Shown here piece after piece: positions 2,695-9,680 of a DNA stretch of 64,000 bases (its first letter is position 1; every line of letters begins with the position of its first letter). Origin of the DNA: Steroidobacter gossypii (lineage in GTDB: Bacteria; Pseudomonadota; Gammaproteobacteria; Steroidobacterales; Steroidobacteraceae); contig NZ_JAEVLS010000001.1 of assembly GCF_016801985.1 (NCBI RefSeq), forward strand, positions 992,001 to 1,056,000, read 5' to 3'. Made by a program: the position numbers and the translations under genes. The notes beneath the pieces were generated by a model. It had not been told where the DNA came from. It did not search any database and was given only the letters and a program-made list of their open reading frames with translations.

Positions 2695-4551
2695 CTAAGG
2701 GATGGTCTTCATTCCCATGTTCGACACCGCGCTCTCGGCGCCCGTGCTGCTGTATGCCTTCACAGCGAAGTACCACGTGCCCGACGTCAGGTTGCTCACC
2801 GTGTAGGTCGACAGACCCGGGTTGGCGATCTGAATGGTCTGGTCGAGATTGTTGCTGTCGCGACCATACACGACCCGGTAACCGGCCAGGTTGGTCAGCG
2901 CCGAGCCATTCGTGTTCTGCGTCGGCGGCGTCCACGACAGCGTCGCACTCGTGGTGCTCGACTGGGTGACCGTGATAGCAAACGCGGGCAGCGAGCGCGT
3001 CGCGGTCCCATCGGTCACCGAGATCACGATGTTGGAGTAGGTGCCCGCATTCGAAGCGCTCGGCGTGCCCGAGAGCCGACCGGTGGTGGTGCTGAACGTA
3101 GCCCACGACGGCATGTTCTGAATACTGAACCGGAGCGTGTCGCCATTCGGATCGCTGGCGGTCGGCTGGAAGTTATAAGCAGTGCCCGCGGTCACGGTCG
3201 AAGCGGGCGTGCCGCTGATCGTGGGCGCAGTGTTGCTCGGCGCACTGACGTTGATCGAGAACGCTGGCAGCGTCGCAGACACACGACCGTCGCTCACAGT
3301 GATCGCGATGTTCGAGAACGTACCTGCCGTGGTCGGCGTGCCGCTCAACCGACCGGTCGCGGTGTCGAACGCCGCCCAGGTGGGACGATTCTGGATGGTG
3401 AAGCCCAGCGTGTCGTTGTCGGGATCGCTCGCGTTCGGCGTGAACGAGTAGCCCACACCGACGCTGCCTGTCGTCGCGGGCGAGCCGGAGATGGTCGGCG
3501 CACGATTCGCAGGCGCGCTCACGGTGATCGCGAACGCTGGCAGTGAAGTCGTGACGCGACCGTCGCTGACCGAGATGATCACATTCGAATACGTGCCCAC
3601 GTCGCCAGCGGCCGGCGTGCCGCTCAAGCGGCCGCTCGCGGTGCTGAAGTTCGCCCAGCGCGGACGATTGGTGATGCGCCAGACCAGCGTGTCGCCGTCG
3701 GGATCGCTGGCGCTCGGCACGAAAGTATAGGTTCGCGTCGCCTGCACGCTGGTGGCCGGCGAGCCGCTGATAGTCGGAGCACGGTTGTCCGGACCGCGCA
3801 CCTGGATTGCGAACGCCGGCAGGCTGCGCGTGATCGAGCCGTCGCTGACACTGATGACGATGTTCGAATAGGTCGCGATGTTCGCGGTGCCCGGTGTGCC
3901 GCTCAGCCGACCGGTCGTGGTGCTGAAGCTGGCCCACGAGGGCCGATTGGAAATCGAGAAACGCAATCGATCGCCATCGGGGTCGTTGGCCACCGGCTGG
4001 AAGCTGTACGGCTGATCCACCATCACCGACGACGCGGGCGTGCCCGAGATCGTGGGCGCGTTGTTGCCAGGTAGCGGCGTCTCGGTGCGGCCGCGCACGT
4101 GAATTCTGAAAGGACCGATGGAGCGCGTGTCACGACCGTCGGTAACAGTGATGGTGATCTCCTCGGATTCGCCAACGTGCGCATCGTCCGGCGTGCCGGT
4201 CAGCAGACCGGTCTCGTCGTTGAAGGTCGCCCACTGCGGCTGATTGGTGATGGTGTATTCGAGAAAGTCGCCGTCGGCGTCGCTGGCTACCGGCTGAAAG
4301 GTGTACATCTGACCCGCGGTCACGCTCGCATCCGGAGTGCCGTCGACTTCCGGTGGCTGGTTGGCCGGCGTCGGCAGCGGATCGCCGCCTACGGGATCGT
4401 CGCCCGAGCCGCCAGTCGCGGGCTGCTCGACCGCGTCTTGTATCGGGCCGCTATCGTCCGAGCCACTATCGAAACAGCCGCTCAACGAAGCGGCGATCAG
4501 CGCCAGCGTGGCTCGCTGTAGAAACGTGTTCCCGAAAATGGTTGGAATCAT
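2695..4551 (-). CDS. Exported lipoprotein with five Ig-like (He_PIG/cadherin-like) repeats and a fibronectin III domain
   Basis: A 618-residue protein with a lipoprotein signal ending in LSGC (lipidated Cys about residue 26) and a Gly/Asp/Pro-rich linker. Five repeats of about 90 residues follow (roughly 64-155, 160-252, 253-345, 345-432, 433-525). Each carries the He_PIG pattern: APTISGTP at the start, then [14 protein letters not shown] and VSDG. A C-terminal fibronectin III domain (about 530-616) contains [11 protein letters not shown] and [14 protein letters not shown]. Acidic DxDGD loops suggest calcium binding. Such proteins usually act in adhesion, matrix or carbohydrate binding at the cell surface; the ligand cannot be told from the sequence. 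Its leader contains two tandem c-di-GMP-I riboswitches, so expression probably follows c-di-GMP level. A shorter paralogue lies at 5430-6602. Confidence 0.9.
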
Positions 4552-4670
4552 TGTTCGTACCTTGGCTTCGCGCGCGGCAACGACGGCCTGGCGACCGGCG
4601 CTGCGAGACGCAGCTGTTTTCTGGAGATGAGGCAGCCGTCGCGGCTAAGACGCGACTATCGAAGCGCAGG

Positions 4671-4697
4671 AAAAGGTGCGCGCGCTGAAGGCGCGCT
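4671..4697 (-). terminator. Possible riboswitch expression-platform terminator
   Basis: On the minus strand a GCGCGC-CTTCA-GCGCGC hairpin (4680-4696) is followed within 5 nt by TTTT. It lies about 70 nt downstream of the proximal aptamer and about 120 nt before the lipoprotein start codon, where a ligand-controlled terminator would be expected. The T run is short and not flush with the stem, so this is tentative. Confidence 0.4.
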
Positions 4698-4763
4698 ATC
4701 GGCAGCTTGCTCAATGCACAATCGTGCGCGTGCACGCTCGCGAGGGGCTCTGCGAGCGAGACG

Positions 4764-4877
4764 TTAGCGATCGTGGCAACCCCGCTGTCGTGGGCGCGCA
4801 GCGCGTCATGCGCGGCGTGCCAGTAGACCGGAGGCTTTGCGTCCCCGCCTTTCGACGGGTTTGCCGATTTCACTCTC
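4764..4877 (-). promoter_or_regulatory. c-di-GMP-I (GEMM-I) riboswitch aptamer, proximal copy of a tandem pair
   Basis: Read on the minus strand, the segment contains the GEMM-I hallmarks in order. These are GGCAAACC, a P2 stem closed by a GAAA tetraloop (CCCGUC-GAAA-GGCGGG), GACGCAAAGCCUCCGG (the tetraloop-receptor/J region), a variable P3 helix, and AGCGGGGUUGCC. AUCG at the 5' end can pair with CGAU at the 3' end to close P1. The guanine predicted to contact the ligand (G20 of the Vibrio Vc2 numbering, my alignment) is kept, which favours c-di-GMP over cGAMP. It is the copy nearest the lipoprotein gene starting at 4551. Confidence 0.88.
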
Positions 4878-4983
4878 TGCTGCTCCCTGGTTCTCACAAT
4901 CGTTCTGACCAGGGCGCGACGCTTACGGTCACGAAGCCAACGAGCAGGGGAAAAGAAGGAAGGATGACGGTTGGCTCGGCGGA

Positions 4984-5082
4984 GCGAGCTGGCCGGCAAC
5001 CCCGCTATCCCCGGCTTGCGCCGTCAAGGACCGGAGGCTTTGCGTCGCCGTCTTTCGACGGTTATGCCCTGGTGATGTTGAG
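4984..5082 (-). promoter_or_regulatory. c-di-GMP-I (GEMM-I) riboswitch aptamer, distal copy of a tandem pair
   Basis: A second GEMM-I aptamer on the minus strand, about 107 nt upstream of the proximal one. It contains CCAGGGCAUAACC, the stem ACCGUC-GAAA-GACGGC, GACGCAAAGCCUCCGG, a P3 helix of GACGGCGCAAGCCGG type and AUAGCGGGGUUGCC. Core positions match the consensus better than in the proximal copy (AGGGCA is intact). The transcript start should lie upstream, between 5083 and about 5357. That 275-bp stretch contains no convincing gene and I could not fix a promoter in it. Confidence 0.9.
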
Positions 5083-5357
5083 TTAAACCCAGGAGATTAT
5101 GTTTTTGCAATTGTCGTTACCGGCCGACAATCCAAACAAAGCAACGGCCGTGGATGTCACATCGCGGTTACATAAGTCCGCCAGAATCCGGACGGCCCCG
5201 CTCTCGTTGAGTGCACATCGGAATATTTTCTGCGGGACAAAACCGCGGCCCGGGCACAGCGATGCCCCCCGCCGACAGAGGCGGCGGCGGAAAGAAAAAC
5301 ACGCCTTTACCCGGAGCACGGGCGCGTGACAGGAGTCCGATCGCTAGTCTTGGAACA

Positions 5358-5391
5358 AGAAAACGGCGACCGGATTGCTCCGATCGCCGTT
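5358..5391 (-). terminator. Intrinsic terminator after the 390-aa Ig-repeat protein gene
   Basis: A stem with arms AACGGCGA and TCGCCGTT, extended by CGG/CCG (5362-5391), is followed on the minus strand by TTTTC. It lies about 40 bp past the stop codon of the gene ending at 5430. Confidence 0.8.
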
Positions 5392-5429: not shown

Positions 5430-6602
5430 TTACCGCACGACCTTCGAATACACGTTCGAGTTCGCGCTCTCGGTGCCGTTGTTGGTGTAAGCGCGCACCG
5501 TGAAGTAGTACGTGCCCGGCGCCAGATTGTTGATCGTGTAGTTGGTCACGCTCGGGTTCGCCACCTGGATGGTGCTCGTCATGGCGCTGGCCGAAGTGCC
5601 GTACGCGATGCGATAACCGGCCAGATTGGTCAGCGTGCTGCCGTCGGTGTTCGAAGTCGGAGCAGTCCAGCTCAGCACCGCACCGCTGCTCGACGCGTCG
5701 ACCACGCTGATCGAGAAGGCCGGCAGCGAAGTGGTGACGCGACCGTCGCTCACACGAATCGTGATGTTGCTGTACGTGCCCGCTTGCGATGCCGTCGGCG
5801 TGCCGGACAACTGACCGGTGCTGGTGTTGAAGCTCGCCCAGCTCGGACGATTCGCGATCGAGAACGTCAGCGCGTTGCCATCCGGATCGCTCGCGGTCGG
5901 ACGGAAGCTATAAGCGCTGCCCACGTTGATGGTGCGAGCCGGCGTGCCGCTGATGACCGGCGCACGATTGGCACTGCTGCCCACGGTGATCGTGAAGGCC
6001 GGCAGCGAAGTCGTCGCACGACCGTCGCTCACGCGGATGACGATGTTGCTGAAGGTGCCCGTCGCAGTCGGCGTGCCGCTCAAGCGACCCGTCGAAGTGC
6101 TGAAGCTCGCCCAACTCGGACGATTGGCGATAGTGAAGCCCAGCGTGTTGCCATCGGCGTCGGCAGCCGAAGGCTGGAAGCTGTAAGCCGTGCCCACGCT
6201 GGCCGTGGTGGCCGGCGTGCCGCTGATCGTCGGCGCACGATTCGTCTTGCTGGCAGTGCCAGTCGTGGTGGCAGTGATGCTGAAGGTCGGCAGATAGACG
6301 GTGTGCACGCCGTCGGTCACGCGCAGCCGGATGTTGCTCCAGGTGCCCGGCGACTTGGGATAACCCATCAAGCGGCCGCTGTTCGGGCTGACCGCCATCC
6401 AGCCCGGCTTGTTGACCACGCTGAACTTCAGCGGACGACCTTCCGGATCGCGGGCGGTCGGCAGGAAGTTATAGCTGGTGTTGGTCTTGATCAGAGTCGG
6501 CGGCGTGCCGCTGATCGTGGGGGGCAGATTGGTCTGAGCGGATGCGATACCGGCAAATGACGCGAGCGCCGCGACCGCGGCGAACGAAGCAGAAAAACGC
6601 AT
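5430..6602 (-). CDS. Secreted protein with three Ig-like (He_PIG) repeats and a fibronectin III domain
   Basis: A 390-residue paralogue of the 618-aa lipoprotein. It begins with a normal signal peptide (MRFSASFAAVAALASFAGIASA) instead of a lipobox, so it should be released or surface-associated without a lipid anchor. Three repeats (about 26-115, 120-210 and 210-300) carry PPTISGTP or RAPTISGTP starts, SDPDGN and TGRLSGTP or TGQLSGTP. The first repeat is the most divergent (RDPEGRPLKFSVVNKPGW). A fibronectin III domain (about 303-388) contains LAGYRIAYGTS and APGTYYFTVRAYTNN. GGAG stands 9 bases before the start codon. A single c-di-GMP-I riboswitch sits about 150 nt upstream. Likely role is extracellular matrix or adhesion; the binding target is unknown. 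Confidence 0.9.
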   Translation of the reverse strand: MRFSASFAAVAALASFAGIASAQTNLPPTISGTPPTLIKTNTSYNFLPTARDPEGRPLKFSVVNKPGWMAVSPNSGRLMGYPKSPGTWSNIRLRVTDGVHTVYLPTFSITATTTGTASKTNRAPTISGTPATTASVGTAYSFQPSAADADGNTLGFTIANRPSWASFSTSTGRLSGTPTATGTFSNIVIRVSDGRATTSLPAFTITVGSSANRAPVISGTPARTINVGSAYSFRPTASDPDGNALTFSIANRPSWASFNTSTGQLSGTPTASQAGTYSNITIRVSDGRVTTSLPAFSISVVDASSSGAVLSWTAPTSNTDGSTLTNLAGYRIAYGTSASAMTSTIQVANPSVTNYTINNLAPGTYYFTVRAYTNNGTESANSNVYSKVVR

Positions 6603-6751: not shown

Positions 6752-6872
6752 CGATGATCAGATCGCAACGGCGACCCCGCTATCTTCGATGCGGCTGCTG
6801 GAGCGGCATCGGAGGACCGGAGGCTTTGCGTCACCGTCTTTCGAACGGCTTTGCCCTTACAGACGGGGCACA
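6752..6872 (-). promoter_or_regulatory. c-di-GMP-I (GEMM-I) riboswitch aptamer upstream of the 390-aa Ig-repeat protein
   Basis: The minus strand shows AAGGGCAAAGCC, a P2 stem GCCGUUC-GAAA-GACGGU, GACGCAAAGCCUCCGG, a P3 helix built from GAUGCCGCUCC and its partner, then AUAGCGGGGUCGCC. These are the ordered GEMM-I core elements, including AGGGCA with the ligand-contacting G. About 150 nt separate it from the start codon at 6602. I see no clear terminator in between, so control could act on translation through the GGAG site or through a terminator I cannot fold by eye. Confidence 0.9.
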
Positions 6873-6930
6873 TTGTGTCGGAGCCCGCGAACTTGACATA
6901 TCGGGCGAGCCGCCCAACGCGCTTCAGGAA

Positions 6931-6942
6931 AAGTTGCAACTT
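6931..6942. promoter_or_regulatory. 12-bp perfect palindrome upstream of the single riboswitch
   Basis: AAGTTGCAACTT is a perfect inverted repeat about 60 bp upstream of the third aptamer. The 6873-7046 stretch, between the HD-GYP gene's stop codon and that aptamer, must hold the promoter of the riboswitch transcript, so this could be an operator. Also in this stretch is an imperfect hairpin (6960-6983) that may end the HD-GYP transcript. No protein-coding gene is visible in 6603-7046. Confidence 0.35.
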
Positions 6943-7046
6943 CTCGTGAGGAAGTTTCAGCGACGCTTAATGGCGACGCTGAGGAGGTGAGGCAGCAAAG
7001 ACCTGATGCCCCTGCCAACGCGCTTTGTCTCTAACGAAAACTCAGG

Positions 7047-9680
7047 TCATTCCGGCAGCGTGAAGCCGTGCTGCCGGATCAGTCGCGTGCAGGCGGCCAC
7101 CAGATGCTCATCGTAGAGCCGGCCGGCCGCACGGTTGATTTCGTCGATGGCTGCATCCATGCCGGCTGCCGGCCGGTACGGTCGCGGCGAACACATGGCC
7201 TCGACGGTGTCGGCGATGGCCAGAATGCGGGCTTCGATCATGATCTCTTCGCCCTTCAATCCCACCGGGTAGCCGCTGCCGTCGAAGCGCTCGTGAGATT
7301 GAAAGACGATCTCGGCGACCGGCGCACCGAAATCGATCTCCGCGAGCAGCTGGCAACCCTCTTCGACGTGAGTGCGCATCAACGCGAGCTCCGTCTCCGT
7401 CAGAGGCGCCGGCTTGCTGAGAATGGACGCCGGCACGGCGATGTTGCCGATGTCATGTAACAAAGCAGCAACACGCAGGCCGTGCTGGCGCTCACCGTCG
7501 AGACCGGCTTCGCGACCGATCGCGACCGCCAGCGCCGCCAGCCGACGTGACGAGCCGGCCGTGTACGGATCGTGCCGTTCGCTCATGCGCACGAACGAAT
7601 CGATCATGCCTTGCAGGGCTACGTCGGTGCGCTGGAGCGCGCTGAGCGTCACCGCATGCGCGCGCTTCGTATGCAGCACGCGCCAGACGCCGTCAGCCAG
7701 CCCGGCGACCGTGCGCTGATCGTCCTCGTTGTAGCTGGTTTCACGATTGCCGACGCCCAGCACCGCGACCACCTCGTCACCGGAAAGCATGGGAACCGCG
7801 AGATAACGTGTCAGGTCCGGCAGGCCGTCGTTCTGGGGCTTGCGAGTCATATCGTTGCTCGACATCACATGCTTGCTGCGCACGCAGTCGGTGAACAACG
7901 CGGCCCGACCCAGAGGCTGCGGTTCGGAATCGGCCATCACCACTTGCGGCCGGCTGCCGTCGCGCCACGCGGCCAGCGTGATGGTCTTTTGCACCGGATC
8001 GACGAAATACAAATAACCGAGCGGGCTGCGCGTGATCTCCATGGCCTGTTCGATCACCCGCCGCACGATGGCGGACTCGTCGAACGTGTCGGCTTGTTTG
8101 AACAGATCGACCAGAAAATCCGACTGCCGCTGCAACATGCGCTGCGCGATCAGCTCACGGCGGCGCTGCCCCGTCTCGCGAATCAGCACGATGCTGTCGC
8201 GCGCGTTCTCCAGTAGACCGACGCTCACTTCGACATCGAACAGCGAGCCGTCCCTGCGGCGATGCTTGGTCTCATAGCGACCGCCACCGCGCACGCGACC
8301 GAGCTGCAGCCGCATGGTGGTCTCGCCGGAGCTTTGATCTTCGATGTCGGCTGCGTTCATCCGCAGCAGTTCTTCCTTGCTGTAGCCGGACATGCGGCAA
8401 TAAGCCGCATTCACATCCAGGATCTGGCCGTCGCCGCCGAGCAGCCAAGAACCGTCCGCGACGGCGTCGAGAATCGCGGCGCCGCTGTTGGCCTGCTCCT
8501 GCAGTTGGCGCTCGAGCTCCAGCCGCTGCGTGAGATCGAAGGCGGACACCAGATCGGCATTGCGACCGTCGAACTCGATCTGCCGGGTCGCGATGGATAG
8601 CGCCAGAATGCCGCCATCCTTGCGCCGGTGCTGTTTCACTTGCGGATCGACGCCCGCATCGGTCACTTCGAACGCCGATGCCTTGAGGGCGAGAAACTCG
8701 GCGCGCGAGTAGCCATACATCGCTAGCGCCGCATCGTTGACTGCGATGAAGCCGCCAGTGGCGTGATCGGCGATCCACATGGGCAGCGGATTGCTTTCGA
8801 ACACGCGGCGGAAACGCGCCTCGCCATCGGCCAGACGCCGATTGACCGCTTCGAGCTCGCTGACTTGCGACCGCAGTCGCGAGTGAGCTTGCATGGCGCG
8901 CTCCACGGCTTCGGCCTGCGCCTCCGCCTGAGCTTGCGCATGCTGAACTTTCTGCTCGGCTTCGAGCTGCGCGCGTTCAGCTCGCTGAATCGCTTCGGCC
9001 TGCTCGCGCTGAGCTTTTTCCAGCGCCTCGGCCTGGGCGGCCTGAGCCCGCTGCATGCGCTCCAACGCCTCGGCCTGCGCTGCTTGCAGCTTCTGCGCTT
9101 TTTCCAACGCTTCAGCTTGCGCCGCCTGCTGGCGTTGCGCGGCCTGCGCTTTCTCCAGCGCGTCGGCCTGGGATTTTTCGAGCACGGCGAAGCGTTGCAT
9201 CGCCGCCGTGTCGAGCATGTTCATCGGACGGGTGTTGCCGCTCGCGCCGTTGCCATGACCGTTGCCGAGGCCGCCATTGGCGTTCACGGTGGGGCGCGCG
9301 CCGTTCATATGACCTGGCGGCAATAACTCATCGAGCGCGCTCAGCAGCTTTTCCGGCGGCGTGGAGCGGGCGAGGAAACGTTCGGCGCCGAGCTCCAGCG
9401 CGAACCGTTCATATTTGGGATCGTCGTGACGTCGCGTGTAGAACACGAAAGGAATGCTCTGCAGGCGCTCGTCCTGTTTCCATTTGCGGCACAGGGCGAA
9501 GCCGTCCATGCGCGGCAGGACGATATCGGAAACGATTGCCTGCGGCGGCTCGCGACGCGCGACGTCCAGGGCTGCGAGCCCGTTCGCGGACTTCAATACA
9601 CGATGACCGCGACCCGACAGCAATGTCTCGAGCGCGATTTGCTCGGATTCGCGCTCGAATGCGATCAGGATGACACCCAT
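7047..9680 (-). CDS. REC-coiled coil-PAS-PAS-GAF-HD-GYP protein, predicted c-di-GMP phosphodiesterase
   Basis: An 877-residue cytoplasmic signalling protein. Domains in order: a receiver (1-120) with a phospho-acceptor candidate Asp52 in VSDIVLPRMDGF; a Gly/Asn linker; a long Ala/Gln/Glu-rich coiled coil (about 155-290) with 14-residue repeats of the type QAEALEKAQ; two PAS domains (about 290-400 and 405-520); a GAF domain (about 535-680); and a C-terminal HD-GYP domain. The last shows LLHDIGN, SHERFDGSGYPVGLKG, RILAIADTVEAM and SPRPYRP. HD-GYP enzymes hydrolyse c-di-GMP. The usual HDxGK motif reads HDIGN here, a substitution at a normally conserved lysine. The receiver lacks the usual paired acidic residues near its start (it reads AFERE), so phosphorylation is uncertain. 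It lies directly upstream of genes led by c-di-GMP riboswitches. Confidence 0.92.
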   Translation of the reverse strand: MGVILIAFERESEQIALETLLSGRGHRVLKSANGLAALDVARREPPQAIVSDIVLPRMDGFALCRKWKQDERLQSIPFVFYTRRHDDPKYERFALELGAERFLARSTPPEKLLSALDELLPPGHMNGARPTVNANGGLGNGHGNGASGNTRPMNMLDTAAMQRFAVLEKSQADALEKAQAAQRQQAAQAEALEKAQKLQAAQAEALERMQRAQAAQAEALEKAQREQAEAIQRAERAQLEAEQKVQHAQAQAEAQAEAVERAMQAHSRLRSQVSELEAVNRRLADGEARFRRVFESNPLPMWIADHATGGFIAVNDAALAMYGYSRAEFLALKASAFEVTDAGVDPQVKQHRRKDGGILALSIATRQIEFDGRNADLVSAFDLTQRLELERQLQEQANSGAAILDAVADGSWLLGGDGQILDVNAAYCRMSGYSKEELLRMNAADIEDQSSGETTMRLQLGRVRGGGRYETKHRRRDGSLFDVEVSVGLLENARDSIVLIRETGQRRRELIAQRMLQRQSDFLVDLFKQADTFDESAIVRRVIEQAMEITRSPLGYLYFVDPVQKTITLAAWRDGSRPQVVMADSEPQPLGRAALFTDCVRSKHVMSSNDMTRKPQNDGLPDLTRYLAVPMLSGDEVVAVLGVGNRETSYNEDDQRTVAGLADGVWRVLHTKRAHAVTLSALQRTDVALQGMIDSFVRMSERHDPYTAGSSRRLAALAVAIGREAGLDGERQHGLRVAALLHDIGNIAVPASILSKPAPLTETELALMRTHVEEGCQLLAEIDFGAPVAEIVFQSHERFDGSGYPVGLKGEEIMIEARILAIADTVEAMCSPRPYRPAAGMDAAIDEINRAAGRLYDEHLVAACTRLIRQHGFTLPE

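Follow-up and report, generated by a model that had tools for sequence, protein, structure and literature searches.

A group of soil bacteria shares a conserved locus in which two c-di-GMP-I aptamers in tandem, accompanied by a distinctive promoter, stand ahead of a gene for a lipoprotein with Ig-like repeats (gene B). We think it likely that the two aptamers, B1 and B2, are c-di-GMP riboswitches placed in series on one mRNA, working independently of each other behind a regulated promoter. Judged from the portion of PMC9481103 consulted, the pair is a further case of the tandem c-di-GMP-I arrangement published there. The window, i.e. the whole stretch analyzed, comprises 64,000 nt of Steroidobacter gossypii DNA, and the locus is found on its minus strand.

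Two aptamers and their genetic context

Scanned in full with Rfam, the window contains three c-di-GMP-I aptamers, each on its minus strand. B1 (5078-4992) matches RF01051 with 60.3 bits (E 2.7e-9, cut-off 35), and B2 (4874-4771) matches RF03167, a family of the same clan, with 66.5 bits (E 1.6e-13, cut-off 59); these values rule out a chance match for either copy. In the whole-genome search, where the genome yielded eight RF01051 matches, B2 reaches 71.9 bits with the RF01051 model. The sequence-only reading, which had proposed two complete aptamers in a row and a scan with RF01051, is thus borne out, as both copies clearly exceed the gathering cut-off of 35 bits. Both also retain GACGCAAAGCCUCCGG and AGCGGGGUUGCC, and each has P2 and P3 helices of its own in the Rfam alignment, as had been claimed for P3.

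On the minus strand, the locus reads in the order HD-GYP gene, aptamer A, gene A, hairpin, palindrome and promoter, B1, linker, B2, leader, gene B and M16 peptidase gene (2675-1200, Pfam). Gene B (4551-2695) encodes 618 amino acids with five He_PIG stretches and a single, C-terminal fn3 domain according to Pfam, in agreement with the Ig-repeat lipoprotein described before; its LIAASLSGC stretch is, by eye, presumably the lipobox. The third aptamer, A (6767-6865, minus, RF01051 56.3 bits), had escaped the sequence-only reading and lies upstream of a second, related He_PIG/fn3 gene, gene A (5430-6602, minus), whose predicted product is a secreted protein of 390 amino acids. A terminator-like hairpin of 13 pairs (5362-5391, minus) separates gene A from the gene B promoter, in a region with 4 terminator-like sites against 2.5 expected in shuffled sequences. 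The conserved neighbor at 7047-9680 (minus) is a response regulator with PAS, GAF and HD-GYP-type domains (Pfam, HD and GYP motifs). Its activity is uncertain from the sequence: LHD(I/V)GN is present in 11/11 relatives retrieved, at a motif where K is usual in place of the N, and the window copy has SHE in place of HHE.

Aptamer A has its own upstream block (6866-6975, minus), where CCGATA(T/G)GT differs from the gene B promoter element; this motif precedes the A aptamer in nine genus loci with gene A and was not found in three other A-type rows compared. The same genome also carries a single A-type c-di-GMP-I aptamer before a second gene-A-like He_PIG protein (L007, G000:C26:388197-388297).

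A palindrome and a predicted promoter ahead of B1

Immediately upstream of B1, an operator-like palindrome TGTC-N10-GACA (5112-5129, minus) adjoins a predicted promoter (5082-5110, minus) with a -35 TTGCAA (5110-5105), a 17-nt spacer and a -10 TTTAAC (5087-5082), which would place the transcription start at about 5075, on the 5' boundary of B1. A general sigma-70 consensus scan of the region found no promoter, so that it is conservation in the comparative alignment that argues for this one. Indeed, TGTC-N10-GACA-N-TTGC is found ahead of B1 at all 13 assembled genus loci (12 aligned, plus G005), directly adjoining B1 at ten of them and separated from it by ∼110 extra bases in G001, G011 and G003. 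A -10-like T(T/C)TA(A/C)(C/T) follows 19 bases after TTGC in 10/12 aligned loci; G003 and G013 do not match this pattern, the latter matching a looser one. No promoter-like block shared ahead of B2 was seen by eye in the leaders compared. With a conserved promoter ahead of B1 and none seen ahead of B2, both aptamers are probably carried on one transcript.

The S. gossypii genome (7.1 Mb) has exactly one site of the palindrome followed by TTGC. Across 40 genomes (G000-G039), there are 30 such sites, where the reversed pattern has 6; an aptamer core follows 60-250 nt downstream of 17 sites and not of the other 13. When the -10 is included and the search covers 296 genomes of the order, seven sites in six genomes are obtained against none for the reversed pattern. 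Six of them stand ahead of an Rfam-found aptamer, and the seventh (G221) shares 23 identical bases with the site before the aptamer of locus L120. The palindrome beside the -35 is probably bound by a putative regulator; no obvious DNA-binding candidate was seen among the ORF starts near three aptamer-less palindrome sites (L106-L108). In G017, three palindrome copies stand ahead of aptamers, one of them with a single aptamer before a DUF1800 protein (L104, G017:C300, 3126-5157), so the association of palindrome and aptamer is not confined to Ig-repeat proteins.

B1 is constant and B2 is variable

RF01051 matches occur in 14/14 genus genomes searched. Defining a doublet as two aptamers of this list that share a strand and lie <300 nt apart, ten of the 14 genomes (G000, G001, G011, G003, G012, G010, G013, G008, G002 and G004) have one doublet each, always before gene B, and no other pair within that distance was found in the same list. 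B1 is present at 13/13 assembled loci, while B2 is missing in G009, G006 and G005 and is therefore not essential there; no assembled leader was found in G007, a genome that is 75% complete. B2 presence must have changed twice on the HD-GYP protein tree (11 rows) and three times on the gene B tree (13 rows). Since the deeper forks are weak, loss rather than gain of B2 has fair support only for G009, which branches inside a B2-bearing clade with support of 95/93 (HD-GYP tree) and 93/90 (gene B tree). Outside the genus, two lake genomes with the same gene order and an HD-GYP protein 44% and 42% identical carry one operator-linked aptamer, and the single aptamer may thus predate the tandem. Two other families of the order have a doublet as well, in G034 ahead of a lipoprotein-like product with a single He_PIG stretch and in G039 ahead of a protein without Pfam match.

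The two copies differ in how closely they follow the family model. B2 scores higher than B1 with RF01051 in 10/10 genus doublets, where it reaches 70-85 bits; outside the genus, this holds in G039 and not in G034 (88.3 versus 87.8 bits). Seven B1 copies (G000, G001, G011, G003, G009, G012 and G013) show GGGCAUAACC in place of GGCAAAccc. Such an asymmetry could mean that one aptamer alone is functional in the cell, either because B1 is the promoter-side switch and B2 a remnant, or because B1 has decayed and B2 does the work. The absence of B2 from three genomes that all keep B1, the position of G009 within the B2-bearing clade and the lower B1 score in every genus doublet would fit such a scheme. 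We nevertheless regard it as doubtful, because both copies keep the conserved core in 10/10 doublets and because the bit scores held by B2 are unlike neutral decay.

A long and variable linker

B1 and B2 are separated by a linker of 117 nt (4875-4991, minus), slightly more than the "about 100 nt" first given for it. In the ten genus doublets, linkers measure 117, 120, 122, 121, 145, 135, 136, 180, 154 and 135 nt. Variation over this range (117-180 nt) disfavors a fixed contact between the aptamers and makes their independent folding plausible, as the sequence-only reading had suggested. The same variation bears on the idea that B1 and B2 form one cooperative binding unit that shares a platform, in the manner of the tandem glycine riboswitch. 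In the text of PMC12452182 that was consulted, contiguous riboswitches of Pseudomonadota as a rule have adjacent aptamers sharing one platform, but a long linker of variable length and three genomes that manage with B1 alone speak against it, and we hold such a unit to be improbable here.

Under the favored model of two independent switches in series, transcription would start from the dedicated promoter, only a few bases separating its -10 from B1, and a putative regulator may act on the palindrome next to the -35. B1 and B2 would then fold and bind c-di-GMP separately, each acting on gene B via Rho-dependent termination or translation initiation. The promoter would first decide independently, and c-di-GMP would then control gene B at two points, with B1 as the constant part and B2 as an added, more canonical and dispensable second switch.

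Both aptamers have the bases of the c-di-GMP type

GGCA, GACGCAA and GCC are found in B1 as well as in B2, matching G20, A47 and C92, which we take to be the ligand-contact bases of the Vc2 aptamer. GGCA and GACGCAA, presumably corresponding to G20 and A47 in Vc2 numbering and to the c-di-GMP type, occur in 36/36 aptamers compared, including B1 and B2 of the window. The c-AMP-GMP (cGAMP) type of c-di-GMP-I has A, not G, at position 20. This G20A change is seen in none of the 36 aptamers, B1 and B2 both having GGCA, and none of the 36 has the A47G of the RF03167 consensus.

B2 resembles the c-di-GMP-I-GGC aptamers of RF03167 in matching their model above the cut-off (66.5 of 59 bits) and differs from them at position 47, where they have G and B2 has A; in the Rfam alignment, GACGCAAA is found in B2 at the site where the consensus is GACGCGAA. 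Its label thus results from clan competition in Rfam. We considered B2 as a ligand variant of this family and dropped the idea, A47 being present and the RF01051 score being the higher one (71.9 versus 66.5 bits). A two-input device, which the sequence-only reading had entertained and in which B1 and B2 would sense different cyclic dinucleotides, is accordingly very hard to sustain: it draws on the RF03167 label of B2, and against it stand the A where that consensus has G, the better RF01051 score and the presence of G20 and A47 (Vc2 numbering) in both copies.

Candidate expression platforms

For B1, a switching strand of its own is probable, as judged from the sequence that follows it. A GUCAUCC motif (4962-4968, minus) may serve as anti-aptamer strand, being complementary with one mismatch to the aptamer P3 strand GGAUAGCGG and paired with it by RNAalifold in four close genomes. 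In 12/13 genus loci, B1 is followed by GTCRT (GUCRU) at +14 to +34, and GUCAUCC is exact in eight of the 12 aligned. The aptamer tail UGCCGGC has an alternative pairing with GCCGUCA. Of the pairs given by RNAalifold on the four genomes, 3/65 and 5/40 show compensatory change, the covariation terms being 0.25 and -0.19; within the genus, the aptamer side of the anti-P3 helix is invariant in B1.

The platform tests (tail energy, tail stem, anti-P3 and RNAalifold) are mutually discordant. The best tail-anchored stem is enriched after B1 (Fisher 5.3e-6, n=15, or 1.9e-4 with one locus per lineage, n=10) and not after B2 (Fisher 0.85, n=12). It is not special to B1, since the A aptamers reach 0.011 (n=11); other operator-linked aptamers give 0.026 (n=5). 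This test excluded G005_x beforehand and dropped G119_A, which lacked a tail match. The ensemble free energy of tail pairing paints the opposite picture, with Stouffer values of -1.0 for B1 (n=12) and -3.8 for B2 (n=10). For antisense to the P3 3' strand, the values are -2.5 for B1 (n=15), 0.6 for A (n=9) and 0.5 for B2 (n=12).

Rho-dependent or translational control is more likely than intrinsic termination, because no intrinsic terminator was found on the minus strand between B1 and B2 and the leader has only a weak hairpin with UUUU (4696-4678). This fits the figure of 10% of Pseudomonadota riboswitches with terminators reported in the portion of PMC12452182 consulted. A possible rut-like, pyrimidine-rich stretch follows B1, with 59-69% C+T in 12/12 loci, a range given without a control. 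Between B2 and the start codon, the leader spans 219 nt (4552-4770, minus) and, in the sequence and the alignment of four genomes, has a possible Shine-Dalgarno AAGG. We lean weakly toward c-di-GMP switching gene B ON, since the product is an adhesin-like surface protein.

The leader also contains an open frame (4466-4999, minus) with a GTG start, preceded by GGGAG, at the 5' edge of B2. It runs over the gene B start in another frame and is open in 4/4 close genomes, with three indels, each a multiple of three. We rejected it as a gene, since substitutions from B2 to gene B show no third-position excess (for example 19, 20 and 19, G000 versus G001).

More tentatively, and with less confidence than in the serial arrangement itself, the locus could be a two-layer c-di-GMP module. 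A putative regulator would act on TGTC-N10-GACA at a promoter found almost only before c-di-GMP-I aptamers, followed by a constant B1 with GUCAUCC as its own anti-aptamer strand and by a removable B2. If this were true and the regulator answered to c-di-GMP, a single gene would have three readouts of that one signal, and the conserved HD-GYP protein alongside may degrade c-di-GMP.

Relation to known tandem riboswitches

The part of PMC9481103 consulted counts 347 doublets and 12 triplets for c-di-GMP-I, more than for any other class, and predicts a sharper response for them. The tandem pseudo-cooperative riboswitches described there have two aptamers in one leader before one gene, as B1 and B2 probably do. 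They differ in having a complete platform after each aptamer, whereas B1 has no terminator after it and both platforms of the present locus are putative. The same part makes no mention of the host gene, the promoter palindrome or the repeated loss of B2. Contiguous c-di-GMP riboswitches are enriched in Thermodesulfobacteriota and Deinococcota, according to the portion of PMC12452182 consulted. The Bacillota triple leader likewise lines up complete c-di-GMP-I aptamers within a single 5' leader, with three copies versus two here, in a gammaproteobacterium and before an Ig-repeat lipoprotein gene.

In the open-licence literature, supplements aside, we found neither a paper on the B1/B2 locus nor a description of the linked palindrome or of the repeated absence of the second aptamer. 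Gene B, with two aptamers in ten relatives, one in three and the same palindrome throughout, offers a natural experiment on the contribution of a second aptamer, a question that the tandem-riboswitch literature answers mostly by prediction. Besides, the palindrome provides a handle on a putative regulator tied to c-di-GMP riboswitches in this bacterial group. As a separate observation, two c-di-GMP-I aptamers lie directly 3' of a 5S rRNA gene in G034 (L105, G034:C23, 2897-2984 and 3548-3634).
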